Part shown: positions 6,396 through 21,242 of the stretch, one piece after another
How the letters are laid out: each line of letters begins with the position of its first letter
Position numbering within the stretch: the stretch's first letter is position 1
DNA from: a virus
IMG/VR virus record: IMGVR_UViG_3300032883_000049
Location: 1 to 21,700 of that record
DNA: 21,700 nucleotides
Reading direction: 5' to 3' (one strand)
Position numbers and translations under genes: made by a program
Notes under the pieces: generated by a model
The model's database searches: none
What the model saw: only the letters and a program-made list of their open reading frames with translations
What the model was told of the DNA's origin: nothing

Positions 6396-7003
6396 TATGC
6401 CCTCTCAATATCACCCGATTCTCTTTTGCCAACCTTTGCAGCCACATTGTCGGAATATCTCTGCATATAAACTTCCGCATCTGCATCATTGACCTTTGAT
6501 AGCGCCATGGAGGTAGCATAGTAAACGATAGGAGTCTCATGCTCATGACCCACATCAAATGTCACACTTCCGGTTGTTAAATGCGTCGGTTCCTTCACGT
6601 ATGTCATAGTCCCGGAGATTACCTGAGGACCACAAGAAATCGAATTTCCCGATACCTGGCACCAAGCGCCAAGATAACCAGGGTAGTTATTTATAAGATA
6701 TGATTCTCCAGGGCCGACCACCCAGCAATCATCAACTCCAGTAAAGGTTCCACTCAAGGTATGTGTCACCGTCAGTGAGTGAAAGAACATGTAATCGCTG
6801 GGAATCGCACACTGAGATCCACTGAATGTTTTGTTGGTAGTCAGTTCCGGGAAATGCTCTTGGGGAACTTTGTGCATGTAATCGAAGATTCCCTGATCGA
6901 GCCAATATAGGATTTCAGTATCCGTACGCTGAGGGTCCGCAAGAGTGCTCGGCTCGTTTATGTTCGAGCGAACCGCTGTTACCAAATCACCTGCAGTTGT
7001 CAT
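6395..7003 (-). CDS. head-tail adaptor-like protein, copy 1
   Basis: A 202-residue protein. The opening AGDLVTAVRSNINEPS and then TDTEILYWLDQGIFDYMHKV match the start of phage adaptor proteins, in which a short helix pair with a 'WL..G' turn is common. CAIPSDYMFFHSLTVT near 65-80 parallels the LPNDF strand of the next gene, and the last 50 residues are helical (YYATSMALSKVNDADAEVYM). The middle is beta-rich and aromatic. It overlaps the preceding gene by 4 bases. The function, joining the portal to tail parts, follows from family resemblance and position; I could not check it by search. Confidence 0.7.
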   Translation of the reverse strand: MTTAGDLVTAVRSNINEPSTLADPQRTDTEILYWLDQGIFDYMHKVPQEHFPELTTNKTFSGSQCAIPSDYMFFHSLTVTHTLSGTFTGVDDCWVVGPGESYLINNYPGYLGAWCQVSGNSISCGPQVISGTMTYVKEPTHLTTGSVTFDVGHEHETPIVYYATSMALSKVNDADAEVYMQRYSDNVAAKVGKRESGDIERA

Positions 7004-7428
7004 GACGGAATCCCCGGACCGTAAATACTTCGACCGTCCCGAATCTTCAACCAGTGATACAAATCCTGACTCATGGCGTGAACGTCATTCTCGAATGCCC
7101 GCCACTTCTCAGCCTCTTCCCTGGCTTCAATCTCCTCGATCAGATCCGCCATGGCCTCCCAACCTCCGTTTGACCAGAGATCGCAGCCCCGTAAAGTAGA
7201 GAAGATCGACCGTGAGAACTTCCCTGGCTCGATCATTGCTACCAGGATGTAGCCGTCACGCGCCCTGATGAAATCATCGGTGAAATCGCTCTTCGTGGTG
7301 TTGATAGGCATCCCATGAGCGATCTTCCGTTCAAGCTGGAACATCTTGCAGATAGGAGACCACCGGACACGCAATGCCGGATCGAAGACCTTCAATTCGT
7401 TGATGAACCACCTAGGCGCGGACGGCAT
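7000..7428 (-). CDS. small phage protein, 'DPALRVRW' type, unknown function
   Basis: A 142-residue protein. The N-terminal block INELKVFDPALRVRWSPICK, followed by FQLERK, resembles a class of small proteins near the head-tail genes of environmental phages, in which a residue line 'DP.LRVRW....W.VER' is recurrent. A central strand region (FIRARDGYILVAMIEPG) is followed by a charged helix, ADLIEEIEAREEAEKWRAFE. No catalytic signature is visible. AAGGAG lies upstream of the ATG. It lies between the beta-rich protein and the adaptors, so a head completion or connector role is plausible but inferred. Confidence 0.65.
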   Translation of the reverse strand: MPSAPRWFINELKVFDPALRVRWSPICKMFQLERKIAHGMPINTTKSDFTDDFIRARDGYILVAMIEPGKFSRSIFSTLRGCDLWSNGGWEAMADLIEEIEAREEAEKWRAFENDVHAMSQDLYHWLKIRDGRSIYGPGIPS

Positions 7429-7440
7429 GGAAAGTTCTCC

Positions 7441-7857
7441 TTAGAAAACGGTGTCGAGATCAGCGACGTTGGATTCTTCCTGAACGCCGCTCCTGGTGAT
7501 GCAGATCCGAACACCCAGATTGACCATGGCCGTTCCAACCGAATCGATGTCGAGCGTGAAGATGTCACCGGCTGCCACATTGGTGGGCTGACTGCTCAAT
7601 GTCGAGTAAGAAACTGTGGTCGAAACGGTACTGATCGTGATTTTGGTAGACTGAGAAAAGATCGTTGTTCCGTTCAGATGGACATCTGCGATCGTCTTGG
7701 TTGACCCCGTGCCCACATCAGAACAGGTGGAGAAGATATTAACGATCTTTCCGGCACACGGCGAAACTGCCATTGCCTTGTTCGTCGCTGCCGTAAGGGT
7801 GCCGACAGAAGTCAGATTGATCAACTGATGGTGCATGTTCTTTATGCGGATTCCCAT
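7441..7857 (-). CDS. beta-rich small virion protein (decoration-like)
   Basis: A 138-residue protein. It is almost entirely beta-strand-like: SPCAGKIVNIFSTCSDVGTG, then IADVHLNGTTIFS, then VAAGDIFTLDIDSVGTAMVN, then LGVRICITRS. The 'AGKI...V.LNG.TIF......AAGD....DID.VG' pattern recurs in small phage virion proteins beside capsid genes, where a decoration or head-fibre role is often assumed. It starts at the ATG at 7857, with GGGAGG about ten bases upstream; a later ATG at 7836 is possible. A 72-base gap separates it from the preceding gene and holds a short GC-rich inverted repeat (CCCG...CGGG). Confidence 0.7.
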   Translation of the reverse strand: MGIRIKNMHHQLINLTSVGTLTAATNKAMAVSPCAGKIVNIFSTCSDVGTGSTKTIADVHLNGTTIFSQSTKITISTVSTTVSYSTLSSQPTNVAAGDIFTLDIDSVGTAMVNLGVRICITRSGVQEESNVADLDTVF

Positions 7858-7929
7858 AGTTAGAACCCTCCCCGCTTCTCGAACGGGCGAGATACTGTTG
7901 TTGATGGAGGTGGAGAAAGTCTGGAGCGC

Positions 7930-8313
7930 TTACCTGGACTTTGCCGGAAACGCCATGGCTTTCATGGCTCCCGGCGCTTCCGGTACAGGTGCAGCGCCCC
8001 AGTGTGTTTCCATGTGCTGGTGAAGATCTTCAATCGTTTTGAACGATTTCGCGTCGCATTGATTGCTCTGGACGAAAGGACACGGATAGACTACATGCTT
8101 GCGAATCTCTTCCTGCGAAAGCTGGCCGAGATAGATAAGCTGAAATCCTACCGTTTCGCCAAAGTCGGGATCAATGATTTCGCTACGCTTGATCGCGTGC
8201 GCCGCCACTTCCGCAGGATAATCTACGACCTCGCCGGGTTGGATCGGTCCATAGTTCCCACTGTCGAAAGTGAACTCAAACGGCTTGTCGCTGGTATTGA
8301 TGATCTTCGCCAC
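7930..8313 (-). CDS. small protein with C2H2 zinc-finger-like C-terminus, next to capsid gene
   Basis: A 127-residue protein from a GTG at 8313 preceded by GGAG; a longer reading would start inside the capsid gene and is rejected. The first 65 residues look beta-rich (FEFTFDSGNYGPIQPGEVVD). Residues 76-104 form a zinc-finger-like unit: C78, C86, then FKTIEDLHQHMETH with H100 and H104. The Cys-Cys spacing (seven residues) is longer than the usual two to four, so metal binding is likely but unproven. It begins 26 bases after the capsid stop. Similar small proteins with a finger beside capsid genes are seen in environmental phages; the role is unknown. Confidence 0.7.
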   Translation of the reverse strand: MAKIINTSDKPFEFTFDSGNYGPIQPGEVVDYPAEVAAHAIKRSEIIDPDFGETVGFQLIYLGQLSQEEIRKHVVYPCPFVQSNQCDAKSFKTIEDLHQHMETHWGAAPVPEAPGAMKAMAFPAKSR

Positions 8314-8339
8314 TGTGCTTTCTCCGTTCAGTACCCGGC

Positions 8340-9622
8340 TTAGTAGATGTGGTTCGGCGTCCCCACCGTGGCAGTGATCCCGTCCAGTCGGAAGCTCTCG
8401 TTCGGACGATCGGTATGGTGCTCGTCGAAAATCCGATAGAATGCTTCCCACATGTCGTATCCCGCCACGTTGCGGAAGATCCGCTCATCTTCATCGGCCC
8501 ACTCGCCGCGTACGTTGATGTAACGGACGATCGAGCCCTTGATGGTTCCGAACAGAGTTCCGTAAGGAGCGTGCTTTGCGATCCTCCAGGGACGATCACC
8601 GTAGGTGATTTCTCCGCCCTTCTTGAGAGCCGCCTGTTTCGTTCCGCCATCCGGTGACTTCAGGTCAGCGCCGGAATACCGCCTGTCGGCCTGCAGGAGT
8701 TTCAGATACTCTCTGCGAACGCTGTGGTGGCAGAAGAAAACGCCGTCATTTGCGAAGTTGCCGCCACCGAGTTCATCCGAGGCATCGATGCCACGCTGGA
8801 TCACATCCAGGGTAAGCTGTCCCACAGAAGAAAACACGGTGGACTTGAAAACCGGATACGTGGTCCGGTTGACACCCGAAAGAGTGTTGGCGTAGGTGCC
8901 ATCATCGATCAGGCCCAGGAGACCCATGACCTCGTTGCCGTAGCTGTTCTTGCTACCGTCAGTAGAGATCCCCGAGACGTACTTGCAGCGCACCCAACGA
9001 CTGTTGTCGCTGAAGGTGGTCGATTGCGTTGCGGCGATCTTGACCGAAGTGCCAGCGGCGGTAATCGTCGAGACCTTCACAACTCCTTCGATGGTAGTCG
9101 CCGTGGTCGGATCAAGAACTGCGCAGTACATGTTAGGGTTGAGGAACCGGGCACCGTTCACAGCCCCCGAAACGTTGTATGGGCTATCCACGTTGAAAGT
9201 CGTGGTGTTGGTCATGCACTGAGCGCCGTACGTCAGACACAAGATGCCGGTTCCGGCACCAAACGCCTGTCTCTCGCGCTCATTCGCAAGATCCTTCACC
9301 AACCCCTTGATTTCCGATTCCATGGCCCTGGTGAACGCGCCTTCGCTCTTCAGGGATGCCTTGATGACCTGCCCCGTGAGCTGTACGCGCCCGTAGTTGT
9401 ACTTCGCGGTGATCGAGACATCCACGTAACCCTGAGCGCCAGCAGCCGGTAGGGGATCCCCCTCAGCCGACGCACCAACACCCTGGTTGCGCGAAATGTG
9501 CAGAGGATACTTCACCACGCGTCCCGTCCAGTCGGCTGAATCGTTCTCGTCGATCCAGTCCGCAAGGACGTTCTGCATGTTCAACTGCTCTTCGATGCGC
9601 GGCCCGTAAACCTCTTTGCAAA
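8340..9622 (-). CDS. major capsid protein, exon 2 (residues about 19-445)
   Basis: HK97-fold-like major capsid protein: the abundant shell subunit. The frame has no good start of its own, and in-frame text upstream of the first ATG/TTG reads KEVYGPRIEEQLN, a typical early motif of capsid proteins of this type. This shows that the N-terminus is encoded elsewhere, in the exon at 10294-10348. Later landmarks are VDVSITAKYNYGRVQLTGQV, MESEIKGLVKDLANERERQA, WVRCKYVSG, FFCHHSVRREYLKLLQADRR, and near the end YDMWEAFYRIFDEHHTDRPN. Joining after T10294 and before T9622 gives 1338 bases, 445 codons plus stop, within the usual capsid range. It follows the scaffold gene. A start at 9584 (TTG), used if no splicing is assumed, would lose the N-terminal arm. 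Confidence 0.85.
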
Positions 9623-10293
9623 CTGTTACGACCTCAATTTATGAGGCGGCTACTCGTTTCCGGTAGCTCTGCAGGTCGCCCTGCAGTTCGGATCGTTTCT
9701 TCATCCATCGTAGGAGTCACCCGTTCGGTCTCTCGCTGGGAAGGAAGTGCTTCATTCTCAACCGGTCCCATACGGTATCGGTTCAGGTGCTTCATCTTCG
9801 TGATGAGCAGTGAGCGCTTCTCGAACAGTTTCATGTCGCGGCCAGAGAACCGATTTCTTCCCTGAGCCGTTCCAAGCTCTACAAATTCCAGCATAGTCTC
9901 CGCTTGTCGTTTCTTCGCCACCAGATAGGGCATAATCGACTTGCACAAAATAGCCATATCCGCAAACGAAGTGACCTGGATCAACCAAGAACTTTTCCGA
10001 TTTCCTCTTCCCTTGATACTGCAGTACCGAAACTCATGATTGATGATCTGTTCCAAAATCTGCTTTACCCCGAGAATGAGTTCGATCGAAGTGTTCCCTA
10101 CAGCAAAAGAGCACTTGATCACCGGAAAGTGGTTTCGGTCGTAGGTAGCCGTCAGATAGAAAGATCCCTCTCCATCTGCGATCCCTGCGAGCCATGCCAA
10201 CTGTTCGTTAATGGTAGTCACATTCTTCCTTAGCTGGGCGTTTTCTCCGAAGAGACGTTCGCCCTTTTGGGTGAATTTTACTTGAGCATTGCT
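9623..10293 (-). ncRNA. group I intron interrupting the major capsid gene
   Basis: 671 bases between two parts of one capsid frame. P1: 10300-10294 (CTTGAGT) pairs with 10287-10281 (GCTCAAG), placing the conserved U.G at the 5' splice site. P10: the 3' exon TTGC (9621-9618) pairs with GCAA (10292-10289). The intron ends in G9623. P3: TCACCC (10274-10269) with GGGTGA (9722-9717). J3/4 is AAAA. P4: GGGCG (10264-10260) with CGCCC (10240-10236). P5: TCTC-TTCG-GAGA (10255-10244). P6: AAGGAAG (10231-10225) with CTTCCTT (9747-9741), with the ORF in its loop. Three 3' hairpins (9686-9669, 9667-9649, 9646-9632; two with GNRA loops) resemble P9-type domains. An R-like string (GAGAGACCGAACGG) and an S-like AAGAAACGATCCG are present, but I could not pair them as P7. 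Confidence 0.82.
9634..10221 (-). CDS. LAGLIDADG homing endonuclease, intron-encoded
   Basis: A 195-residue protein from a GTG at 10221, with AAGGAAG four bases upstream. A single LAGLIDADG motif, LAWLAGIADGEGSFYL (residues 8-23), carries the acidic residue that cuts DNA; single-motif members act as homodimers. A beta-strand saddle (FPVIKCSFAVGNTSIELILG) and then YLVAKKRQAETMLEFVELG follow the family order. It would cut the intronless capsid gene and so spread the intron. From about residue 151 on, the frame runs through the intron's 3' core, and the low-complexity tail is probably not part of the fold. Reading from the ATG at 10320, inside exon 1, is possible on the unspliced RNA but lacks a ribosome site. 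Confidence 0.88.
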   Translation of the reverse strand: MTTINEQLAWLAGIADGEGSFYLTATYDRNHFPVIKCSFAVGNTSIELILGVKQILEQIINHEFRYCSIKGRGNRKSSWLIQVTSFADMAILCKSIMPYLVAKKRQAETMLEFVELGTAQGRNRFSGRDMKLFEKRSLLITKMKHLNRYRMGPVENEALPSQRETERVTPTMDEETIRTAGRPAELPETSSRLIN

Positions 10294-10348
10294 ACTCAAG
10301 GCCCCCATTGAGGGCGGCATCGAAGCCGGTTAAGTCCTGTCCTGCCAT
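10294..10348 (-). CDS. major capsid protein, exon 1 (N-terminal 18 residues)
   Basis: ATG at 10348, with GAGG upstream, encodes MAGQDLTGFDAALNGGLE and one base of the next codon. On the unspliced transcript it stops at once at TAG (10294-10292), so it has no use as a separate gene. Spliced at T10294/T9622, it reads ...NGGLEFCKEVYGPRIEEQLN, joining directly to the capsid frame. It begins 16 bases after the scaffold stop, where a capsid gene is expected. An alternative join four bases away on both sides (after T10299 and G9619, reading NGGLKEVYG) keeps the frame too, but has no U.G pair at the splice site. Confidence 0.82.
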
Positions 10349-10364
10349 AATTGCTTACCTCACA

Positions 10365-11177
10365 TCAGTCTTGTCTACCTGCTTGCAGAATAGCCCAAGC
10401 TTGCTTGTGAGCAGATTTGGTGATCCCCTTGTCGTCTTTGTCCTTCGACTGCTGTGACAAGGTTCCCTGAGCACTAGGAAGCGTGGGCAACCGTGAAATC
10501 CGTCGCCGATCCGCTATGTCCTTGCTCTGTGCAGGTGTGGCCTTCCTGATTACCCCGAGAAAGTCCTTTTCAAGTACTGCGTAGGCTTTCTTGATGCAGG
10601 AAAGGTTGCCAGAAGCCCAGAGCCTTTTGAGTTTTGGATCCTGGTCTATTTCCAGCATAACCTGTCGAGCGAGACGGGCAACTGCCGCCTCATTCTTAGC
10701 CGGTATCCCTGCTGCCGTGGCAAGTTCGCGGATCTGTTCCTCTGCCGCGTCAAACTGCGCTTCAATGCGATCTGTCTGGTCCTGTTTCTGTTGCTCGATG
10801 TACTGAGCATACTCAGGGTCAGCCTTACGCATCAAAGCTTTGATTTCCTTCAGTTTGGCGGGAGAGATCTCCCCTTCCTGTTCGGCGGCTTTGGCAGCGG
10901 CAACCATCTGAGCTTTGTGCTTTTGGAACTCGATAACGTCGTTTGGATCGCCTATGTTAGCGCGATACCAGTTGGCGATTTCCTCAGCTTGTTTTCTCTG
11001 TTGGAGAAGTTGCTGGAAGCGCTGCTGCGCCTTTTTGGAGAGGGGCTGATCAGACTCTTCACCTTCCGGGTTTTGGTCGGCTCCGGCTTCCGAGGCTTCA
11101 AGGGATTCGTCTTTTACTTCGATTTGTTCGTCTGTAGCCGTTGACGAGGCGGCTCCTGTTTTTCCGTCATCTGGCAT
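10365..11177 (-). CDS. capsid scaffolding protein
   Basis: A 270-residue, highly charged, mostly helical protein just before the capsid gene. It has an acidic low-complexity N-terminus (about 1-45), then KKAQQRFQQLLQQRKQAEEI and a long Ala/Glu/Gln-rich coiled-coil region, and a basic polar C-terminus (KSAHKQAWAILQAG). These are the normal traits of phage scaffolds, which drive prohead assembly and then leave or are cleaved. The 'KKAQQRFQQLLQQRK' segment is a common scaffold feature in podovirus-like genomes. The start at the ATG follows AGGAC. An 85-base gap upstream may hold its own promoter, but I see no convincing -35/-10 pair. Confidence 0.85.
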   Translation of the reverse strand: MPDDGKTGAASSTATDEQIEVKDESLEASEAGADQNPEGEESDQPLSKKAQQRFQQLLQQRKQAEEIANWYRANIGDPNDVIEFQKHKAQMVAAAKAAEQEGEISPAKLKEIKALMRKADPEYAQYIEQQKQDQTDRIEAQFDAAEEQIRELATAAGIPAKNEAAVARLARQVMLEIDQDPKLKRLWASGNLSCIKKAYAVLEKDFLGVIRKATPAQSKDIADRRRISRLPTLPSAQGTLSQQSKDKDDKGITKSAHKQAWAILQAGRQD

Positions 11178-11262: not shown

Positions 11263-11997
11263 TCAGAATGCAGATTTCATGTGCGGATACTTCTCTAGGA
11301 AACGCTGGAGGTTCGAGTGACGTTCCGACTCCCTGGCGAAGCTGCATGACCAATTCTTTCCACGGTCCAGACTAGCTCCACCAGCGCCATGCTTGATGAC
11401 GAGATCACTACAGATCATCGTCCAGAAACCCTCAGCCCTGGCACGCATACAATAGTCGTCATCATCGAACCCGTAGCCAGTGAAGGTTTCATCCAGAAGA
11501 CCAATCTTGTCAATCAATTCCCGTTTGATGTAGACGCATGGGAAGCAGACAGTTAACTGGGAGCCGAAGATGTTTGAGAGGCTGGATCGCAGTTCCCTGA
11601 CCCTACTGAAACTTTGCCAACTGTTTCCCACCCCACCATCGATCAGGGGACTGATCAGACCGCACCTTTCCCATTCGTAGGCTCTTTGATGGAGTTTGGC
11701 AAAGAAGTCGTCTTCCACAACCTCCATGTCATCGTTGAGTAGAATTACGTCGTGAGGGAGAATATCTCCAACAAGAATTTTGATTCCACAGTTTGCATTT
11801 TTCGCGTAAATGAATGGCTTCTCAGCATCCACGTAGAAGCAGTCACCATACCATCCGGGATCATCAAAAGTCTCCTCGTGTCCGTCCCTGACCACGATTA
11901 TTCTTTGCCAATATTTGCTGTGTTTCCTGATTGACTCAATGAGGTTGCGAGCGTACTCAGGGTACTTGCTTAAGATCACTATTCCGTAGGGATTCAT
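11263..11997 (-). CDS. glycosyltransferase family 2-like protein
   Basis: A 244-residue GT-A fold enzyme that moves a sugar from a nucleotide donor to an acceptor. The N-terminus YGIVILSKYPEYARNLIESI is a Rossmann-like start; DVILLNDDMEVV (about 83-94) holds the metal-binding DxD-like NDD; TGYGFDDDDYCMRARAEGFW (about 173-192) is the typical acceptor/catalytic-base block of GT2 rhamnosyl- or glucosyl-transferases, and IKHGAGGAS closes the site. No membrane segment is seen, so it acts in the cytoplasm. The start overlaps the zinc-ribbon gene by 41 bases and has AGGAG eight bases upstream. It lies apart from the three-glycosyltransferase island, between portal and scaffold. The substrate is unknown. 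Confidence 0.85.
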   Translation of the reverse strand: MNPYGIVILSKYPEYARNLIESIRKHSKYWQRIIVVRDGHEETFDDPGWYGDCFYVDAEKPFIYAKNANCGIKILVGDILPHDVILLNDDMEVVEDDFFAKLHQRAYEWERCGLISPLIDGGVGNSWQSFSRVRELRSSLSNIFGSQLTVCFPCVYIKRELIDKIGLLDETFTGYGFDDDDYCMRARAEGFWTMICSDLVIKHGAGGASLDRGKNWSCSFARESERHSNLQRFLEKYPHMKSAF

Positions 11998-12448: not shown

Positions 12449-12657
12449 TTGCTGCCTTTCTTCTTCCGATGCATGACGGCCTTCATGCCCTTTTTGACTT
12501 CGCTTTCCTCTGGCAATCCCTTTTCAGAAGTGGTAGCGAAGTCATGCAGTTGCTTGTGGGACATCTTGAGCAATCCACTGTTTCGAGCAAAGACCTGATC
12601 TGGGTTATGCTCAGCGATTGCCATGGCCCTGCGTTGTTTTACAGATGTGGCTGGCAT
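12445..12657 (-). CDS. small basic protein resembling DUF3008
   Basis: A 70-residue protein beginning MPATSVKQRRAMAIAEHNPD and continuing with KMSHKQLHDFATTSEKGLPE. The opening 'MPA.S..QR.AM..A' and the 'MS..QL.DFA.T..KGLPE' segment are the marks of DUF3008-type short phage and bacterial proteins, whose function is not established. It starts on a one-base TAATG overlap with the portal stop. The basic end (MHRKKKGSK) suggests nucleic-acid contact. The assignment rests on motif recall. Confidence 0.75.
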   Translation of the reverse strand: MPATSVKQRRAMAIAEHNPDQVFARNSGLLKMSHKQLHDFATTSEKGLPEESEVKKGMKAVMHRKKKGSK

Positions 12658-14969
12658 TACATCGGTCCTCCAGGCATGGGCGGCATATTAGGTTCGGACG
12701 CAGGTCCAGCGGGAGGAGTCTGAGTCCCACCTGGACCTGCGCCGTTTCCTGGCACTGCCGCTGCACCAGGACCAGCCCCAGGAGCACCAGGGGGCATGGG
12801 GGGAGGCATGGGCGTCATCGCCATCATGTGCTCAGTGATGTGATTCATGAAACGACCTTTGAGGTTCAAATCCATCTTGTCGAAGTCGCTCGTAAGCGCG
12901 TATTCCTTGTGTATCATCAGGTGAACCATGTGATTGTCGAGCATCGGATTAATGTCGGGATCCGTGTTTTCGTTCGTGAAGCGCCAGTTCTCACGCTGTG
13001 CGTACTTGATGTTCGAGTCCGTGTCACCCAAGAGAGCAGTCGAACCGAACTTCTCAAGAATCTGGTACTGAGTCTGCGGATTCATCGGATCGATGATTTT
13101 CATTGTGGCAAGATCCTGAATCATGGCTTGTTCACCCACGAGACTCTTGGGAACCCCACTACCAGCTTCCACAACGACATCGATCGCACCGGAGAGATCA
13201 GCTTTGCTGAATCGGGAAATCTCCCACGTGGAACCGGGACCCTGAATTTTATTGATCCGTTCCTCGTTGGCGAACTGCTGAAAGATCGTCAGAGCATCGC
13301 GGCAGACCTTTTCCCACTGAAGTTCGAATCTGTGAATGACTGGTGTGTAACGGGTGTTGGCTCTTTCGAGAAGTAACCTAAGAGCAGTTCCTGCGGTCAC
13401 ACCAGCAGGAGCGTTTCCCTTGAGAACATCCATCGTTCCCGCGAGAATGTCCATGTCGTTGTCAATTTTTTCCAACCAAGCGATGATCGAAGTTGGTACG
13501 TTGTCCCCTGGCACTCTCTCAGGTTTGAGCCGTGGATCCATAGCCCAGTTGCCTTCAAGGATCTGCCCAGGCTCACCCGTGATCTCAGTTACTCCCAGGT
13601 TTTTAGGGACGAGCCATACAGGATTGGCGCAACGTGTGATGATGAGTTGAATGAGGGACTCAAGTTTGTTCCGTTGCTCCTGCTTAGGAGCCACGTCATC
13701 CATAGGAGTTCGCCCGAAGATACGACCCGGAACTTGGTCGAACTGGATAATGTGCCAAGGCCAAATGGGTTTTCCTTCTCGCTCACGATAAGGGATTCCA
13801 TCGTTGACTTCTTTCTCGTTGAGGAGTTTGTCGTTAGCGTATACCGCTACGAGTCCTTCCGGGAAGTCCTTGCAAGGTCTCTTCCAGAGCATATCGACTG
13901 TAATGTTCTGGTCATCTCCAACGCTTCTACCCGAAGCGATTCCGGTGCCGTACATGGAGTTTCCAGCCGCGTATGCAATCGCTCTAAGCAGATTGAGACC
14001 AATAACACCTCCTGTGTTCGAGTTATTGTCTGCCTCAAGGTCTGGTTGGTCATAGAGTTCCTTGATTACTTCCACCGGATAACGGCGACGAATCAAAAGT
14101 TCCTGTACTTCCTCCATGCTCCGCGCTTCCAGATCGATGAAAACCTCAAAAGGACTGAAGACCTCAAGTTTCATTTTTCCGTTTGGAAGTTCTTCCCCTA
14201 CTTCTTGACCAGTCTCATCCACCGCATCTTGGACGTTTGGACTTCCACAGATTGGACAGGAATTCTCGCTCTTCTCCGTTTCCTCTTCTTCAGGAAGAAC
14301 TGGCGGGGCCCCAAGCGGTAACGGCATCGGCATCGAGGAACCCATGGCCCCGATGTTGGCTCCGTTACCGCCCCCCGTATCTGTGGCTATAGGTGCGTTG
14401 GTTTGAGGTTGTGTTGCAGTCGGTGTTGCAGGTAGAAGCGGCTTTGGACCTCCAGCCATGTCGGGCGCGAAGGTTTGCCCGCACTGCTGGCATTTCAAGT
14501 GCTGCACGAACGTCGTCCCGTGTTTAGGATCCTTGTCGTAGCAGGGATGCAAGATGACTGATCCGGTCAGAGTCAACCACGCCGAGCAAAGATTCCTGGC
14601 ATAGTCGCTGTCCATTTCCTTGAGGATCACATCGAAGTTTCGATCGGCTACCGCTGCTGAAGCAATGTCCTCGGGATTGTCACTTCCTGGACGCGCACGA
14701 ACATTCGGTTCCTTGGCAGACAGGACCTGCATGATCGTGGTAGCGATGCTGGCAAACTTGTTCGTGACGGGTCTAGGAACCCACTTCGCCACCTTGCGCG
14801 GACGCCACTTCCGCATCTGCGGAGAGTAGATTATCCATTGTATACCCAAGAAAAATAAGCAGTTCTGGAACCAAGCGCGTTCGTACGAGTAGCGTTCAGA
14901 CTGCGCCCGCTGCCGAGCCTTGTCGTATACCTTCCGAACCTCTTCGAGATTGTAGCCTTTTTTAGCCAT
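12657..14969 (-). CDS. portal protein with zinc-ribbon insertion
   Basis: A 770-residue portal: the dodecameric ring at one capsid vertex through which DNA enters. Early text RYSYERAWFQNCLFFLGIQW, then RPVTNKFASIATTIMQVLSA, and mid-protein FGRTPMDDVAPKQEQRNKLE with NAPAGVTAGTALRLLLERAN are typical of podovirus-like (P22-type) portals. At 160-163 and 238-241 lie CQQC and CPIC, flanking a Pro/Thr/Gly-rich segment of about 75 residues; this looks like a zinc ribbon with a disordered insert. The C-terminal 65 residues are Pro/Gly/Ala-rich and end in MPGGPM. The length is on the high side because of these two regions. It lies 42 bases after the glycosyltransferase gene at 15012-16043 and overlaps the next gene by one base. 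Confidence 0.9.
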   Translation of the reverse strand: MAKKGYNLEEVRKVYDKARQRAQSERYSYERAWFQNCLFFLGIQWIIYSPQMRKWRPRKVAKWVPRPVTNKFASIATTIMQVLSAKEPNVRARPGSDNPEDIASAAVADRNFDVILKEMDSDYARNLCSAWLTLTGSVILHPCYDKDPKHGTTFVQHLKCQQCGQTFAPDMAGGPKPLLPATPTATQPQTNAPIATDTGGGNGANIGAMGSSMPMPLPLGAPPVLPEEEETEKSENSCPICGSPNVQDAVDETGQEVGEELPNGKMKLEVFSPFEVFIDLEARSMEEVQELLIRRRYPVEVIKELYDQPDLEADNNSNTGGVIGLNLLRAIAYAAGNSMYGTGIASGRSVGDDQNITVDMLWKRPCKDFPEGLVAVYANDKLLNEKEVNDGIPYREREGKPIWPWHIIQFDQVPGRIFGRTPMDDVAPKQEQRNKLESLIQLIITRCANPVWLVPKNLGVTEITGEPGQILEGNWAMDPRLKPERVPGDNVPTSIIAWLEKIDNDMDILAGTMDVLKGNAPAGVTAGTALRLLLERANTRYTPVIHRFELQWEKVCRDALTIFQQFANEERINKIQGPGSTWEISRFSKADLSGAIDVVVEAGSGVPKSLVGEQAMIQDLATMKIIDPMNPQTQYQILEKFGSTALLGDTDSNIKYAQRENWRFTNENTDPDINPMLDNHMVHLMIHKEYALTSDFDKMDLNLKGRFMNHITEHMMAMTPMPPPMPPGAPGAGPGAAAVPGNGAGPGGTQTPPAGPASEPNMPPMPGGPM

Positions 14970-15011: not shown

Positions 15012-16043
15012 TTACCCTACCTTGCTTCCAGCCACGATGCCTGCGGTCATTGCACCGGGACGTTTGGGTTCTCCTATGACAACCTCATCGACGACGGCGG
15101 TCTTCGGATCGAATACAGGGAAACCGATTGTCTGTGTGGCCGCTTCCTTGCCCTTGATGTATCCCCGGTTGATCGCAGAGTTGATGTCCAGGAGGTTTAC
15201 CAGCTTGAAATGCGAGCATCCCACACGCGTGTCAGCCCACACCGAGAAACCCATCTCCTTCGCCTTCCAGGAGAAATAGTGATCTTCCGTGAGCAGGATT
15301 TCCCGCGACGGCTTGTAGAGGAACCGGAACCAGGGCCGCTGCATCTGTTCGATGACGTGCCGAGAGATCATCAAGCAGGCAGCTCCAACGGAGTCCACCT
15401 CCAAGAGCTTCGGTTCTCCGATGACGCCTTTGTGAGCCCGGAAGACAAAGGGATCGAGACCGGTGTTTTTGCATCGACACTTCATGCCAGAAAGGATCCC
15501 GGTCTTCGGATCGCAGAACGCCTCGTAGAGTTCCCGCAACGGATTCCAACGGCAGAGACCATTGTTAAGAACGGAGTACTGAGTGGGATCATGAACCGTT
15601 CCATCGGCCAAGTACTTGCTCACACAGACGCACTGTTCGCACTCTGACCGCTCCCAGGTGGACGGCAGTAGTTCTCCCTTGATCCAGCAGAAGACGAGTC
15701 CGGAAATGATGTCCTTCCCTTCCAGAGTCATGTTCATCGCGGTAGGAGGCACGTCAACGTCGTCGTCGATCATCCAAAGGTAGTCGCAGTTGGTCTGGAG
15801 AAAGATCTCGCACAGACAGTTCCGGGCGTGGTCAATGTGGCGCACTTCCGAAATGAAGTGGAACCAGGGATCGAACTCCTTGACCTGAGCGAGAATGAAG
15901 AGCTTGTTGACGAGTGCCGTGTTGATGCTCGTCATGTTCGGTAGGCCGATGAAGATCTTGGGTCGGCCAGTAGGCCGGTTGATGGATCGTGCCTGATCAT
16001 TCAATGCTTGTTGGACTTCAGGTGGTAGAGTGATTTCGCTCAA
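15012..16043 (-). CDS. GT-A glycosyltransferase with Cys-rich insert
   Basis: A 343-residue cytoplasmic glycosyltransferase. KIFIGLPNMTSINTALVNKL opens the nucleotide-sugar fold; CDYLWMIDDDVDVPP (about 86-100) carries the DDD metal site; EDHYFSWKAKEMGFSVWADT near 263 is the acceptor-side block. Between them are CEQCVC and later CRC motifs, a possible metal-binding insert not needed for the fold. The start is a TTG at 16043, forming a TTGA overlap with the upstream stop, with GGAGG nine to ten bases before it. This protein type is common in environmental phages, where targets are unknown. With its neighbours it forms the sugar-modification island. Confidence 0.85.
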   Translation of the reverse strand: MSEITLPPEVQQALNDQARSINRPTGRPKIFIGLPNMTSINTALVNKLFILAQVKEFDPWFHFISEVRHIDHARNCLCEIFLQTNCDYLWMIDDDVDVPPTAMNMTLEGKDIISGLVFCWIKGELLPSTWERSECEQCVCVSKYLADGTVHDPTQYSVLNNGLCRWNPLRELYEAFCDPKTGILSGMKCRCKNTGLDPFVFRAHKGVIGEPKLLEVDSVGAACLMISRHVIEQMQRPWFRFLYKPSREILLTEDHYFSWKAKEMGFSVWADTRVGCSHFKLVNLLDINSAINRGYIKGKEAATQTIGFPVFDPKTAVVDEVVIGEPKRPGAMTAGIVAGSKVG

Positions 16044-16435
16044 GATTGAAGTTCCTCCAGTGCTTGTTCTTCGTCATAGGATGCACCGTCGCCAAAGATG
16101 TCCATCTGGCGCTCCTTGAGTTTTTCCTGTTCCTCCATGGTCGCAGGACTATCGGGAGTCAGCACTAGCTTCGCCGTCCGCATCAACAGAGCGTTGATCG
16201 CAGCCTCCGCACGCTTGCGCTCGTGCTCGACATCCCCGTGAAGTACGTTTATACACTCCTGAGCCCGGTGATTGTCTAACACCAATTCCTCACGGAGCCT
16301 TTCGATTTCCAATTCCGCACGCCTACGCTCTTCCTCAACTGCTTTTGTCAGAAGATCAATCTGCCGATTCAGATCAGCGATGCGAAACTCCTGCAGTTTG
16401 ATTTCCCTGTCGGTGGTAAACTTCATTCCAAACAT
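16040..16435 (-). CDS. coiled-coil protein
   Basis: A 131-residue protein; residues about 10-85 form one continuous coiled coil with a strong heptad pattern and Glu/Arg content (LNRQIDLLTKAVEEERRRAE, then LEIERLREELVLD). After that comes a short acidic tail with an EEQEKLKERQMDIFGD segment. No enzyme motif. The ATG at 16435 follows AAAGGAG by nine bases. It lies between two sugar-modifying enzymes, so it might hold enzymes together, or be a virion fibre piece; both are inference. Confidence 0.65.
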   Translation of the reverse strand: MFGMKFTTDREIKLQEFRIADLNRQIDLLTKAVEEERRRAELEIERLREELVLDNHRAQECINVLHGDVEHERKRAEAAINALLMRTAKLVLTPDSPATMEEQEKLKERQMDIFGDGASYDEEQALEELQS

Positions 16436-16436
16436 T

Positions 16437-17042
16437 TCATGCGCTCCTTTTGATTACTACGATAAAGTCAAAAGAGACGAGGATCGAATCAATCGTGTTT
16501 TCAGGGAAGATGGATCTCACATGAATCTCATCGATTAAATCTTTGACCATACCAGCTATCCCGGCCATATGACCCGATCCAGAATATTGTGAACCTTCCC
16601 ACGGACCTTCTTGATAGGAAACCCCCCAATCCTCTATGAAGTAAATGCCACCATTCTTGAGATGATTTCGAAACAGATGAACGAAAGATGCGCGAGTCAA
16701 ACTACCGACATGACTGCAGTCATCAATGATAACGTCAAAACCATCGGAAGCATGGCGCAGAGCAATCTCAGAAAGAAGCACGGTGTTCGCCTGATCGCAC
16801 TTGTAGGATGTGATCCTGTCCGAAAATTGCTGAGGAACAACATAATGGTTAGTGTCAATTCCCACTATTGCGGCATTTGGGAATAACTCTCTCCAAACAT
16901 TCAGGGATCCACCTTGAAAGATTCCCAGTTCTAGGACCGATGTTACCTTTTCTCGTATAGGCACTAGGATTTGCTCATATCTAACCCGCATCGTTTCCGG
17001 TTTGCGAGCATCATACTTTCGGACTAGATCATCTATAAGCAA
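16437..17042 (-). CDS. class I SAM-dependent methyltransferase (sugar O-methyltransferase-like)
   Basis: A 201-residue protein from a TTG at 17042, which follows GAAGGAGG by seven bases; an ATG at 17075 (11 residues more) has no ribosome site and overlaps the upstream gene by 43 bases. SVLELGIFQGGSLNVWRELF (about 35-54) is motif I, IVGIDTNH holds the ribose-binding Asp, FDVIIDDCSHVGSLTRASFV (102-121) and GGIYFIEDWG (131-140) match the metal-dependent sugar O-methyltransferases of macrolide and glycan pathways (demethylmacrocin/MycE-like group). It probably methylates a sugar made or placed by the neighbouring glycosyltransferases. The substrate is not known. Confidence 0.8.
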   Translation of the reverse strand: MLIDDLVRKYDARKPETMRVRYEQILVPIREKVTSVLELGIFQGGSLNVWRELFPNAAIVGIDTNHYVVPQQFSDRITSYKCDQANTVLLSEIALRHASDGFDVIIDDCSHVGSLTRASFVHLFRNHLKNGGIYFIEDWGVSYQEGPWEGSQYSGSGHMAGIAGMVKDLIDEIHVRSIFPENTIDSILVSFDFIVVIKRSA

Positions 17043-17845
17043 GGTCTGGCCTCCTTCAGCTTTTCGTCGTACCATGAGAGCCCATAGTAGGCACCCCAGT
17101 TCGGATTCGTATGGATCCCCCAGTTGTGGGCCTTATCGTTGGCCGACAACCGATTCCACACGCGATCGTGGCGCTCGATCACGTGTTCCCTTCCCAGGTA
17201 CTTGTAGTGCAGCATCATGAACTCGGGATCGCTTTCCAACACTCGATATTGCTCTCTTACTTCAGGTGGAGATGTGAGAACCTTCTGACCTGCCATCTGG
17301 AACTCACGGAAGTTCACACTTCCATCGTCACCAGTGAGAGTGAACCCATGGAGTCCAATGCCAATCGTGATGTCGATCTCGGGACGGAAGATCACTCGAT
17401 CGTACATGGGATCACGGATCCCAGTCCTCACGTAGGAAGTCATCTGACCAGGGCCTTGCGGACGCTCCTTTGAGAACATATTCCAGCCATGAGTGACGAC
17501 GGCAGAAAAGTGAGACGCCTTCAGTTCTCCTAGCCGTGCGAGTAGATTCGGATGGTAGTGGAACTCGTCAGAGTCTCCCACAAGGCACCAGTCAGCCAGC
17601 CCCCGACTGTGGATCTTGTACTCGTTCGAGCGCATGGCCTGCAGTTTCAGTTGATCCAACCCAGTAAAACCAGGATCCTTGATCTCCACCAGCGGCGCCA
17701 TACTCTCAAGAAACTCCCGTGTTCCATCCGTACTGTCATCGTCATAGACGAAGATCTTGGAAGCGAACTGAGCGTAATGACGCACGAAGAATTGGATCAT
17801 GTAGAGGTCGTTATACGTGCTGGTGTAGACGTGGAGGATTGTCAT
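17033..17845 (-). CDS. glycosyltransferase family 2-type (Glyco_tranf_2_4-like)
   Basis: A 270-residue protein. HVYTSTYNDLYMIQFFVRHY (5-24), the DDDSTDGT turn (35-42) and DWCLVGDSDEFHYHP (85-99) fit the family of distant GT2/GT92-like enzymes in which DSDEF is the metal-binding site. The C-terminal half carries YKYLGREHVIERHDRVWNRL, a conserved acceptor-side stretch, and HNWGIHTN. It overlaps the previous gene by 4 bases and the next by 10. It acts in the cytoplasm on an unknown acceptor. Confidence 0.85.
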   Translation of the reverse strand: MTILHVYTSTYNDLYMIQFFVRHYAQFASKIFVYDDDSTDGTREFLESMAPLVEIKDPGFTGLDQLKLQAMRSNEYKIHSRGLADWCLVGDSDEFHYHPNLLARLGELKASHFSAVVTHGWNMFSKERPQGPGQMTSYVRTGIRDPMYDRVIFRPEIDITIGIGLHGFTLTGDDGSVNFREFQMAGQKVLTSPPEVREQYRVLESDPEFMMLHYKYLGREHVIERHDRVWNRLSANDKAHNWGIHTNPNWGAYYGLSWYDEKLKEARPCL

Positions 17846-18765
17846 TCGAAGTACCTCCGATACATCTCCCAGACCACACGCGCCTTGAACGGGAAAGTGT
17901 TCTCCATGGCCTTCTCGACACCGTACTGAGCTAGATCTTTGAGGAATTGGTACGTGTTCCGGTAGCCCCAGATTTCGTCTTCCAGGTCTTTCAGGAGCGA
18001 TTCCAGACTGCGAACCTGCTCATGGCGCACCGTGGCTTCGCAATAGACCGAAGAGTTGGGATGAAGCGCCTGAAACACGTAGCTGGCCCAGATGTCCTCC
18101 AACCTGCCAATGAAGGCAAACGGACAGTAGTCCATCGCATATTTCGCGGCGAACATCGTGTTCTGACTGTTCATCGGCATGAACAGAGATCCGCAGAAAG
18201 GACTAAAGTTCTGGCCGATGCGAATGTCAGGTCTTAGTGCCAATCTCATAAGAGCATCGATGTCGGGATCACAATCCCACAGATTTGCCTGCATCAGCAC
18301 TTCGACGTTTCTGGTGAGATAGCGTCTGGACCACTCCTGATTCCTGAGTTCAATCGGGAATCCACGATGCCACAGTCTTATGTCGAATAGATGGACCGGC
18401 TCGTATATTTTCTCAGGCTTCACATGGGCTCCGATTGTCGTACCAATGTGGCATTTCTTTCCCCAGTTATCATAGGGGAAATTGTCATCGTCGATCGTCG
18501 CAATGACATCAGCCCCAGCCCGATACGCCATGATGATGGCGATCATGCGTCCCCTGGCCGTGCTGTCAGGACCGATGAGATTGCAGAGATCAGGAAACCC
18601 TTTCTGCTGCGCTTCCCAGTCAACGTACAGCCCCCGCTTGAGCGGATACTCCTTAGGACTCTTGCGATCCCCAGTAACGATCAGCGACCAATCCTCCATG
18701 GCATCATACTGTTCAATGGCTTTCGTTGGCGGCAGGATCGTTGTAGTGATGATGAACTTCTTCAT
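17842..18765 (-). CDS. STELLO/DUF288-like glycosyltransferase
   Basis: A 307-residue protein starting MKKFIITTTILPPTKAI on a 4-base ATGA overlap with the radical SAM gene; a longer reading from upstream has no support. The opening 'IITTTI.PPT.AI', DWSLIVTGDRKSP near 25-37 and ADVIATIDDDNFPYDNWG (85-102, DDD metal site) are marks of the STELLO-like glycosyltransferases, related to the reversibly glycosylated polypeptide (GT75) group. Later comes RPDIRIGQNFSPFCGSLFMP and a region with FIGRLEDIWASYVFQAL. It is likely to bind UDP-sugar. Phages carry this family in environmental genomes; the acceptor is not known. Confidence 0.8.
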   Translation of the reverse strand: MKKFIITTTILPPTKAIEQYDAMEDWSLIVTGDRKSPKEYPLKRGLYVDWEAQQKGFPDLCNLIGPDSTARGRMIAIIMAYRAGADVIATIDDDNFPYDNWGKKCHIGTTIGAHVKPEKIYEPVHLFDIRLWHRGFPIELRNQEWSRRYLTRNVEVLMQANLWDCDPDIDALMRLALRPDIRIGQNFSPFCGSLFMPMNSQNTMFAAKYAMDYCPFAFIGRLEDIWASYVFQALHPNSSVYCEATVRHEQVRSLESLLKDLEDEIWGYRNTYQFLKDLAQYGVEKAMENTFPFKARVVWEMYRRYFE

Positions 18766-19772
18766 AGGAAATAGCCTCTCTTCCCCTTTTCGAAATCCTG
18801 TACTGCTTGATCGTGAAGGACGAATTTGCAATCCACGAGATTACAAGCTTCCCGTTTGATCTGTCGGATCTTCTCTCGATGTTCAGCGGACATCCAGATT
18901 TCCCGAAACGGTTTCTCGAATATGTTTCCGATCCGGTGAGAATCCCATCGGTAGTAGTAGAAACAGCAGATGTAGATGTTCCCCTGCCAATCCATGACGG
19001 TGTGCAGAGGATTCAACCAGCACTGAGGAACCTTCTCGAAAGGAATGGGAATGATCCAAGAACTAACAAGATCATCAGCCCTGGCAATGTGAATCTGATC
19101 CCGCAGGAAGTTTGCCTCAACTCTCTTGTCGTATTGAGTCAGTTCCTCCGGTTCATGCCTCAGCGCCTTGAACGTCACACGATCTACTTTAAGCGTCCTT
19201 CCCAAAACGATTCCAGCCGCATAGTGCTCCCTACCCCGGAGACTGTCACCTACGGAAAACTTGATCGTAACCTCACAGTCAGAGTTTGTTCGGTCTCGTT
19301 CAGCCACCAGATGTTTTATGGACGCTAGAACATCGTACCAATGAGATTGAGGCACCCCCTTGTACTCGGAGTAGTCCTCTGGGTTGGTAGCCTCCAGAGA
19401 GATCCGGCAGTAAGTTCCCTTCAGAATCTCAGCAGTCATCTTGTCGATGCCTGTACCATTCGTGAGCAGGCCAAACGTCGCACCCCTGGAGACAATGTAT
19501 TCCATGTGATCTCGAAGGTACGGAAGCAAGGTGGGCTCTCCGCCACCCGCAAAATCGAACGCCTTGACCCCGACATCCAGAAACGTGTTGATCGCTTCCT
19601 TGTGTCGTTCTTCGTCCATCATGTTCGGCGTATGGAGATCACGATAGGCACATCCAAGGCAGTTTTGGTTGCAGACATCACAAGTGTGAAAGTCCACAAA
19701 GCGGGGCCAAACACGAAGACCACTTCTTATTGCAGCAATGTCGTCGTATCGGTGGATAACGTTCGTGAGCAT
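18762..19772 (-). CDS. radical SAM protein with SPASM/twitch-like C-terminus
   Basis: A 336-residue protein. The CNQNCLGC motif (C34, C38, C41; CX3CX2C) holds the 4Fe-4S cluster that splits S-adenosylmethionine; FDFAGGGEPTLLP (72-84) is the GGE motif that binds it; GLLTNGTGI (101-109) and RISLEATNPEDYSEYKG complete the barrel. Four or five Cys in the C-terminal part (C251, C269, C270, C310, C315) around WQGNIYICC and HRIGNIFEKPFREIW resemble a SPASM or twitch domain holding an auxiliary cluster. Such proteins modify peptides, sugars or proteins by radical chemistry. It starts on a one-base TAATG overlap with the methyltransferase and is followed directly by the STELLO-like enzyme. The substrate is unknown. 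Confidence 0.88.
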   Translation of the reverse strand: MLTNVIHRYDDIAAIRSGLRVWPRFVDFHTCDVCNQNCLGCAYRDLHTPNMMDEERHKEAINTFLDVGVKAFDFAGGGEPTLLPYLRDHMEYIVSRGATFGLLTNGTGIDKMTAEILKGTYCRISLEATNPEDYSEYKGVPQSHWYDVLASIKHLVAERDRTNSDCEVTIKFSVGDSLRGREHYAAGIVLGRTLKVDRVTFKALRHEPEELTQYDKRVEANFLRDQIHIARADDLVSSWIIPIPFEKVPQCWLNPLHTVMDWQGNIYICCFYYYRWDSHRIGNIFEKPFREIWMSAEHREKIRQIKREACNLVDCKFVLHDQAVQDFEKGKRGYFL

Positions 19773-20251
19773 TACTTCACCGCCTCCAGAATGATTATGA
19801 GTTTGGGTCCGTCCTGAGTTTCCTGTACGTGCTCACTGACAACCTTGAATACCGCCGTGATGCCATAGGATGCCGCAAATCGTTCCCTATAGGGATTTCC
19901 CTTCTCGAAGTACCAGAACGAATGCCGGTTCCAGAACGATACGTGCGTGGGATCCTGAAAAGCACCACGACCGTCGGTTGTGGGGACGTGTATTTCCATG
20001 ATTCCCCCGGATTTCAGAACCCTGTGGGCTTCGTTCATCGTGTGGATCTTGTCGGGGAGATGTTCGATGATGTCTTTGGCGAGGATGTAATCGGCCATGT
20101 TATTCAGAGCCCAGGTCCATGGTTCCCTCAAATCCATGCAAAAGAAGTTAGGATTGTTCTCTTCATCATCAAACGGAAAAATGTCTACGTTTAGATAATC
20201 TTTCTTGAGGTCATCTCCCGATCCTAGGTTAACCCAGAGTTTTTCAGTCAT
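19772..20251 (-). CDS. class I SAM-dependent methyltransferase (Methyltransf_11-like)
   Basis: A 159-residue protein. I start it at the ATG at 20251 (MTEKLWVNLGSGDD), which overlaps the terminase stop by 8 bases with GAGGA before it. WVNLGSGDD (6-14) is a shortened motif I, LNVDIFP (20-26) the acidic loop, ILAKDIIEHLPDKIHTMNEA (56-75) and HRVLKSGGIMEIHVP (76-90) are motifs of the 'D.LEHL.....  VLK.GG' methyltransferase group found with glycan genes. DPTHVSFWNRHSFWYFE (100-116) is a family-typical block. The usual length is 150-220, so it is complete. It probably acts with the sugar island; the target is unknown. Confidence 0.8.
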   Translation of the reverse strand: MTEKLWVNLGSGDDLKKDYLNVDIFPFDDEENNPNFFCMDLREPWTWALNNMADYILAKDIIEHLPDKIHTMNEAHRVLKSGGIMEIHVPTTDGRGAFQDPTHVSFWNRHSFWYFEKGNPYRERFAASYGITAVFKVVSEHVQETQDGPKLIIILEAVK

Positions 20252-21242
20252 AGTCCTCACCCGCTTCGTTGTCAAACTCTCCCAGTGAAGATCCGTTGCT
20301 CGACTCCTCATCGAAGTGTCTTGCCACAGACTTCCACTCGTTGTAACTGACAGGATCCTCCTGTTTCAACTTATCCATTTTCCGATCTTCAGGTTTCCCA
20401 GGAGCCATAAAGAACATCGTCATAAACATCTTGAAGTCATCGAATGAGTGATTGTCCTTGTCAACGATGCTCTCTTTGATGTTCCGACTCTCCTGCATCG
20501 TTCCTGACCAGTCAGAGTACCGAAGCTTCGAGAACTCCCATATCCATAGCGGACAGGTAGAGAACACGCGTAATCTCGGTTTGAACTCCCACTTATCAGG
20601 TTTCTTCTCGGGAAGGAACCACAGTTCCCCGTTGATCTTCTCTGCTACAGTGATGTCGCCACCTGCCTTCCCCGGTGCAAACACGATTTGTTCTGGATTG
20701 GACAACTCAAAAAACAGTTGTGCAATCGATTTAAGTTCGTTGCCGTCATCTGTCTGTTGGGTCTTAGCCCATATAGAGGGGTCGGCAATTGGCATATAGG
20801 ACAAGCGATTCCAAAACGGACAAGATCGTATGGCACGGGCAATCTGTCGGTACCCCATGCCCTTGCGGTAGTACTCCCACACAACCCACACGTCGCCGTC
20901 ATGATCAATTGCGTAGATGTGGAATGAACTCGGGTTACGGTGTCCATAATCGAAGGATCCATAAAGACTCCAAGAATTAGGAACTTCAAACGGTGGCACA
21001 ACGATCTTTGTCTTGAACAGTTCGAACTGAGGAAAGCAGAGTTCTCCTCCGGCAGCATCCCAGTCGATCTCCATCTCACCGCGCCATTGAGCGCTGGCAA
21101 GACCACCAGGGATACCCTCTGCCTCACGATCACGCCAGATGATTCCCGTAGGAGTGTCAGGATCCTTGTCGGGATCGGCAGAGTAGTGCACCCTGATCAC
21201 ATGGAAGCCGGGTTCGGAACGATAATGAGTTATGCCCTTCAT
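20244..21242 (-). CDS. terL: terminase large subunit, nuclease half only
   Basis: A 332-residue protein. It carries the RNase H-like nuclease domain of TerL, which cuts concatemeric phage DNA at packaging: YGSFDYGHRNPSSF (first Asp, about 93-106), MPIADPSIWAKTQ (second Asp), and HSFDDFKMFMTMFF (third Asp). The first ~70 residues (FHVIRVHYSADPDKDPDTP, then WRGEMEIDWDAAGGELCFP) match the linker that normally follows the ATPase domain. No Walker A or B motif is present, so the ATPase half must be in another ORF beyond 21700, either as a natural two-gene TerL or because the gene is interrupted. The ATG overlaps the stop of the ORF at 21239-21568 by 4 bases. The same frame stays open 30 bases upstream, to a TAA. 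Confidence 0.8.
   Translation of the reverse strand: MKGITHYRSEPGFHVIRVHYSADPDKDPDTPTGIIWRDREAEGIPGGLASAQWRGEMEIDWDAAGGELCFPQFELFKTKIVVPPFEVPNSWSLYGSFDYGHRNPSSFHIYAIDHDGDVWVVWEYYRKGMGYRQIARAIRSCPFWNRLSYMPIADPSIWAKTQQTDDGNELKSIAQLFFELSNPEQIVFAPGKAGGDITVAEKINGELWFLPEKKPDKWEFKPRLRVFSTCPLWIWEFSKLRYSDWSGTMQESRNIKESIVDKDNHSFDDFKMFMTMFFMAPGKPEDRKMDKLKQEDPVSYNEWKSVARHFDEESSNGSSLGEFDNEAGEDYD

Follow-up and report, generated by a model that had tools for sequence, protein, structure and literature searches.

What do sugar-modifying genes do in the middle of a phage packaging module, and which chemistry do they encode? The question is raised by the viral record IMGVR_UViG_3300032883_000049, from an uncultured tailed phage, whose entire 21,700 bases constitute the window analyzed here. 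Between its terminase and portal genes, positions 15012-20251 hold an island of seven open reading frames (ORFs) on the minus strand, all free of internal stops, which an earlier reading of the letters alone (the sequence-only reading) had described as a coupled sugar-modification set. All seven were found as it had described them. In transcription order, the region comprises the nuclease part of the terminase large subunit (TerL), a methyltransferase (MT1), a radical S-adenosylmethionine (SAM) enzyme with a SPASM domain, a nucleotide-sugar mutase homologue, a glycosyltransferase (GT24), a second methyltransferase (MT2), a small coiled-coil protein, a further glycosyltransferase (GT-C), and the portal; 3' of the portal follow a glycosyltransferase named GT-D, the scaffold, a LAGLIDADG-like ORF, and the major capsid protein (MCP). 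On balance, we favor the view that two layers of genes within the head/packaging operon of this podovirus-like lineage form a glycan machine, with a cassette that makes a furanose (five-membered-ring) donor and a methylated glycan that is probably placed on head proteins.

The mutase homologue

The gene that had been called a STELLO-like glycosyltransferase encodes instead a homologue of GT75-type nucleotide-sugar mutases. The STELLO identity (PF03385) was dropped: no Pfam family matches the window protein, and among 34 relatives just 3 match STELLO, the best with an E value of 0.0018. A profile built from 36 relatives matches structures of the mutase MtdL (7xpr, 7xpu, 7yua, 8hl8; E 7e-35). 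With the AlphaFold (AF2) model of the window protein (predicted local distance difference test [pLDDT] 94.1, predicted template modeling score [pTM] 0.93), the best solved structure found by Foldseek is again MtdL (2e-20, TM 0.8), followed by rice UAM2 (OsUAM2, 5e-10), and ordinary GT-A enzymes rank far below both.

MtdL is a GT75 mutase of nucleoside diphosphate (NDP)-pyranoses, for which a covalent arginine mechanism has been proposed: its R159 is autoglycosylated, roles have been described for the DDD motif, Asp195, Gln229, Arg257, and Asp260, and its substrates are GDP-L-galactose, which is converted to GDP-L-galactofuranose, and GDP-L-fucose (PMC9937993). A residue map revealed that the equivalents of MtdL D109-D111, R159, D195, Q229, R257, D260, and R289 are kept in 34 of 34 phage proteins and that of S228 in 30 of 34; the key residues in the window protein are D92-D94, R134, D168, S200-Q201, R221, D224, and R252. 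Thus, the phage family shares with MtdL/Hyg20 and the plant UAM/RGP proteins (GT75) the fold, the DDD motif, the nucleophilic Arg, the general-base Asp, and most substrate residues. It differs from them in its low identity (22-23%), its location in phage sugar clusters, and two altered positions. The Mn ligand His287 of MtdL is Gln in all 34 phage proteins, and Asp87 is replaced by Ile, Val, Thr, or Ser, so that activity or metal use may differ. Among the plant proteins, AtRGP1-3 have Ser at position 87, and the inactive AtRGP5 lacks His287 (PMC9937993). Because these two residues are not kept, the phage mutase is probably best regarded as belonging to a sister family of GT75 whose metal site is altered rather than as a proven GT75 member, and as a mutase by predicted function.

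Two further positions bear on the nucleotide. Ser86 and Thr13 favor GDP over UDP in MtdL; the former is Ser in the window and Ser, Thr, Cys, or Asn across the phage family, and the latter appears to correspond to T8 of the window protein (read from the motif, not computed). Both would be compatible with GDP use.

Partners of the mutase

To place the mutase in context, viral relatives were collected with a profile scan (108 found, 80 kept as L026-L105). A short-chain dehydrogenase/reductase (SDR) epimerase lies near the mutase in 72 of 84 viral loci, at a median distance of 839 bases. Sixty-eight of these 72 match gp119 of cyanophage S-T4 (39-100% identity across half or more of the protein, and in most cases across all of it), and gp119 is itself a homologue of GDP-mannose 3,5-epimerase (2.5e-78 against the PDB, with the next unrelated enzyme at 2e-22). 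GDP-mannose 3,5-epimerase makes GDP-L-galactose. The 68 of 84 loci that combine this epimerase homologue with a GT75-type mutase probably encode a GDP-L-galactofuranose pathway, one that is widespread in viruses, which implies that many environmental phages may make GDP-L-galactofuranose-like donors. Very few known enzymes give furanosyl donors. In bacteria, the mutase relatives L163 and L164 adjoin SDR enzymes, and L165 stands with gmd and a GDP-L-fucose-synthase-like gene. A huge phage (L006, LR756501.1 295000-344000) carries a sugar region of more than 40 kb with gmd and homologues of the radical SAM enzyme, the mutase, GT24, and MT2.

The window lineage is different in that its mutase is paired with a radical SAM enzyme instead of an SDR epimerase. 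This enzyme scores above the curated cut-offs of both PF04055 and PF13186, which bears out the SPASM-like assignment made earlier, and all cluster cysteines are present in an alignment of 11 relatives. Its profile matches in the PDB include sugar-acting enzymes (cytosylglucuronate decarboxylase, DesII, and the SPASM part of BtrN), which stand among many other radical SAM proteins and are thus only suggestive of its chemistry. A close member of this family lies immediately upstream of the mutase in six of six loci: in the head operon of the window and its relatives L011 and L114, behind the capsid gene of L026, after a glycosyltransferase array in L108, and within a DNA-hypermodification cluster in L057 (1228-6893).

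No SDR epimerase was found in the viral records that bear the radical SAM enzyme, although these records are fragments and the L114 contig was checked by blastp only. The mutual exclusion gives a hypergeometric P-value of 3.9e-6 (six radical SAM loci among the 13 of 85 that lack an SDR epimerase), which is no fair probability, since five of the six linked mutases form one clade with L026 at its base, pointing to one or two replacement events, not six. A possible, if doubtful, interpretation is that the radical SAM/SPASM protein is a radical nucleotide-sugar epimerase, or an equivalent C-H modifier, taking the place of the NAD-dependent GDP-mannose 3,5-epimerase in supplying the GT75-type mutase with its substrate, so that a methylated furanose head glycan is built by a route with no known cellular counterpart. 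The rSAM-linked branch (rSAM, radical SAM) in any case poses an assayable question, namely whether a radical SAM enzyme does the epimerase's job. The literature searched contained no description of a radical SAM enzyme partnered with a phage pyranose/furanose mutase; a passing mention of "GT75" in soil phages places it among cell-membrane-related genes and gives no pathway (PMC12016548).

Constant and exchangeable layers, and the proposed glycan

Five close relatives (L011, L012, L013, L114, and L115) were obtained from profile scans with the MCP, the radical SAM enzyme, and the portal; IMG/VR scans with single sequences of the radical SAM enzyme, the mutase, and the portal had returned nothing. 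L011, whose MCP is 66% identical, has MT1, the radical SAM enzyme, the mutase, an extra glycosyltransferase, GT24, the coiled-coil protein, GT-C, the portal, and GT-D. L114 has the radical SAM enzyme, the mutase, GT24, GT-C, and the portal at 38-61% identity. Such near-identical gene order in independent phages argues that the island is not a chance assembly. L114 (DPLS01000191.1) is labeled as the Bacteroidetes metagenome-assembled genome UBA11986 but is plainly a phage of this lineage, the label being a weak host hint or a binning error.

On the other hand, L115 retains MT1 (65%), another methyltransferase, GT24, the coiled-coil protein, GT-C, and GT-D without the radical SAM enzyme or mutase; L012 has another methyltransferase with the coiled-coil protein, GT-C, and GT-D only; and L013 has just the last three. 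GT-C and the portal are constant in six phages, and the coiled-coil protein and GT-D in all five whose coverage was checked, whereas no GT-C or GT-D match was obtained in more distant phages (36-47% MCP identity). This pattern implies a constant layer (coiled-coil protein, GT-C, and GT-D) and a swappable cassette (MT1, radical SAM enzyme, mutase, glycosyltransferase, and MT2). The idea of seven genes forming one obligate unit was rejected on the gene content of L115, L012, and L013. The sequence-only reading had proposed to judge the island by whether its genes occur independently elsewhere, and they partly do: L115 has MT1 and GT24 without the pair, while L012 and L013 have GT-C and GT-D but lack the cassette. 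The set is therefore modular, and only the radical SAM enzyme and mutase stay together.

A reasonable hypothesis for the pathway is as follows. The radical SAM/SPASM enzyme would alter a nucleotide sugar, with a GDP-hexose as the likeliest candidate; the mutase would contract the ring through a covalent adduct on Arg134 to give an NDP-furanose; GT24, GT-C, and GT-D would transfer the sugar or sugars; MT2, and probably also MT1, would O-methylate the sugar; and the acceptor would most likely be a virion head or portal-associated protein. Use of a GDP-sugar is suggested by the epimerase homologue of the 68 viral loci and by the gmd/GDP-L-fucose synthase context of L165. MT2 matches MycE and TylE, with its DDxSH and ED motifs aligned to theirs, in agreement with the earlier call of a sugar-type O-methyltransferase; it corresponds to their C-terminal catalytic part alone (212 amino acids versus about 400). 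MycE and TylE both methylate macrolide sugars. Synthesis and attachment of a methylated glycan, as the sequence-only reading suggested, is thus supported by the MT2 match, the several GT-A enzymes, and the recurrence of the arrangement, except that one supposed glycosyltransferase would make the donor instead.

Head proteins are preferred as acceptors because the constant glycosyltransferase genes lie on either side of the portal gene, where they would share the expression of the head genes, and because there are precedents. In the mycobacteriophage Corndog, an O-methyltransferase, two glycosyltransferases, and a putative GlcNAc-transferase lie between the portal and capsid protease genes, and capsid modification has been suggested (PMC4351075). 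In mycobacteriophages, glycans have also been reported on both capsids and tail tubes (Freeman 2023, as cited in PMC11256854 and PMC12619734). In Corndog-type phages (cluster O), as in the window, genes for an O-methyltransferase and glycosyltransferases thus interrupt the series of head genes (PMC4351075), but no mutase or radical SAM enzyme is mentioned there, the island of the window lies between terminase and portal, and the phages are otherwise unrelated. Methyltransferase and glycosyltransferase genes between head genes recur in L011 and L115 and, without a recognized methyltransferase, in L114. Genes of the kinds found in the island also lie right after the major capsid gene in L026 and L112, which supports a head-linked function; in L112, an SU10-type phage, these are a TPR/glycosyltransferase protein and a distant homologue of the radical SAM enzyme (5880-10470). 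The earlier statement that no described pathway has this exact set holds for the literature searched, although the general kind has the Corndog precedent. A head-module glycan island is therefore already known; what appears new, in the literature searched, is the pairing of mutase and radical SAM enzyme, and head-associated glycan genes are extended to an unrelated lineage with identifiable sugar chemistry.

Besides the two altered positions of the mutase, several points count against a methylated furanose glycan on head proteins. Gene position is no proof of a virion acceptor, and no acceptor protein was identified; a 479-amino-acid protein of the window (2085-3524), which has a long Ser/Ala-rich repeat region (ASSSV-type, period of about 20 residues by eye), was considered as a dedicated acceptor but found no support, as no Ser/Thr-rich counterpart was found in L011. 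The radical SAM enzyme fits no named subfamily (of 31 NCBIfam matches, each of the 25 listed falls far short of its cut-off), its pair with the mutase sits among DNA-hypermodification genes in L057, and some glycosyltransferase assignments owe more to conservation than to high profile scores.

Placement of the glycan on host surface polysaccharide or lipopolysaccharide rather than on the virion, as in receptor masking, serotype change, or superinfection exclusion, is unlikely but has some backing. The mutase clusters of cyanophages, which contain several glycosyltransferases and heptose genes (GmhA in 15 and HldE in 12 of 84 loci), resemble surface-polysaccharide synthesis, as does the gmd-containing region of the huge phage. 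Cyanophages S-T4 (L007) and Sf-CH5 (L008) share with the window a 39% identical mutase with a methyltransferase and glycosyltransferases nearby; they differ in carrying epimerase and heptose genes and no radical SAM enzyme, and their clusters are outside the head operon in both annotated loci. In the island, by contrast, no flippase, polymerase, or membrane glycosyltransferase was recognized, and both constant glycosyltransferases are embedded in the head module.

It is rather improbable that the radical SAM/SPASM enzyme acts independently of the sugar pathway, on a peptide side chain of a virion protein or a small peptide. Many SPASM enzymes do act on peptides, and its best NCBIfam matches, though far below cut-off in every case, are to maturases (TIGR04317 2e-18, mycofactocin, anSME); yet the close family adjoins the mutase in every locus, distant homologues (L110-L113) lie in or next to glycosyltransferase genes, and no gene for a precursor peptide was recognized next to it. 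Slightly more improbable still is a supply of sugars for DNA base hypermodification. In its favor, the L057 pair has as neighbors a 5-hmdU DNA kinase (PF18723 5e-45), a TET-associated glycosyltransferase (PF20691 1.5e-8), and a gene resembling thymidylate synthase. Against it, PF20691 (TAGT) matches in the window and its relatives are below cut-off, PF18723 and PF00303 have no match in the L011, L012, and L013 contigs, nor PF00303 in L115, an absence that is not final in such fragments, and the PF12851 (TET) search had a silent control.

Gene anatomy and neighboring features

Table 1. Features of the island and its borders in the window.
Feature	Coordinates	Strand	Evidence
Split TerL, nuclease half only of the terminase large subunit; upstream island border	20244..21242	-	phrog_5653 1e-8; 49-61% to L012, L013, L114
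MT1, class I methyltransferase (ATG 20251, 8-base overlap with TerL)	19772..20251	-	PF13489 1.3e-7; 51% in L011, 65% in L115
Radical SAM/SPASM enzyme, C34xxxC38xxC41, GGGEP, SPASM cysteines	18762..19772	-	PF04055 9e-12, PF13186 5e-9; 47-49% in L011, L114
GT75-type NDP-pyranose/furanose mutase homologue	17842..18765	-	real start ATG 18765; profile vs PDB, AF2 model, Foldseek, residue map
GT24, family-2-type glycosyltransferase	17033..17845	-	PF13704 1.4e-12; 32-38% in L011, L114, L115
MT2, MycE/TylE-type sugar O-methyltransferase	16437..17075	-	3ssm 1.7e-15, 8ia9 1.2e-10; phrog_21658 1e-18
Small coiled-coil protein, conserved partner directly 5' of GT-C	16040..16435	-	same place in L011, L012, L013, L115
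GT-C, GT-A-fold glycosyltransferase, D93xD95, E253-D254	15012..16043	-	constant in six phages, 36-47%
Portal protein, downstream island border	12657..14969	-	PF23899 1e-10; phrog_156 2e-16
GT-D, constant GT-A glycosyltransferase like GT-C, between the portal and scaffold genes	11263..11997	-	TIGR01556-like 1.2e-6; 39-47% in L011, L012, L013; 47% in L115

The genes are closely coupled, as the sequence-only reading had stated, with overlaps of 8 bases (TerL/MT1), 1 (MT1/radical SAM), 4 (radical SAM/mutase), 4 (mutase/GT24), and 4 (coiled-coil/GT-C) and a 1-base gap between MT2 and the coiled-coil gene; its range of 1-10 bases fails at GT24/MT2, which overlap by 43. GT-C is separated from the portal by 42 bases. 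The seventh coupled gene encodes the coiled-coil protein, not an enzyme, and the terminase border is real but consists of the nuclease half only. The fourth glycosyltransferase gene that it had noted, GT-D, is present as a GT-A gene and conserved in relatives. Scans for Rfam families, tRNAs, and tandem repeats yielded nothing relevant to the island, and the GC profile has no compositional break. The putative MCP of the window was assigned from its position, 47% identity to an unannotated MW202554 protein, and conservation in relatives.

Profile scores of GT-C and GT-D are weak alone, and both proteins are conserved across relatives. GT-C has four invariant cysteines (C135, C138, C189, and C191). 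The top Foldseek match of its model, and the closest solved structure, is A197 of the archaeal virus STIV, a GT-A protein (2.5e-9, moderate confidence), relative to which GT-C adds the four-Cys insertion; as the model is moderate (pLDDT 66.8), the PDB matches are read as "GT-A fold" only. Distant GT-C-like glycosyltransferases lie directly upstream of the terminase in two remoter relatives (L121 5255-5995 and L132 1170-1886), where ORFs of about 529 amino acids occupy the terminase position, unlike the split TerL of the lineage.

This split into ATPase and nuclease ORFs runs across the lineage (20244-21242 in the window, 760-1587/2118-3116 in L012, 841-1695/about 2986-3946 in L013, and 590-1402 in L115), and the two halves are separated by small ORFs or, in L013, by a tandem glycosyltransferase (GT2). 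The LAGLIDADG-like ORF between the scaffold and MCP genes (9634-10320) matches PF14528 below cut-off (E 0.019), and two ORFs of L016 (4839-5399 and 8744-9238) resemble it.

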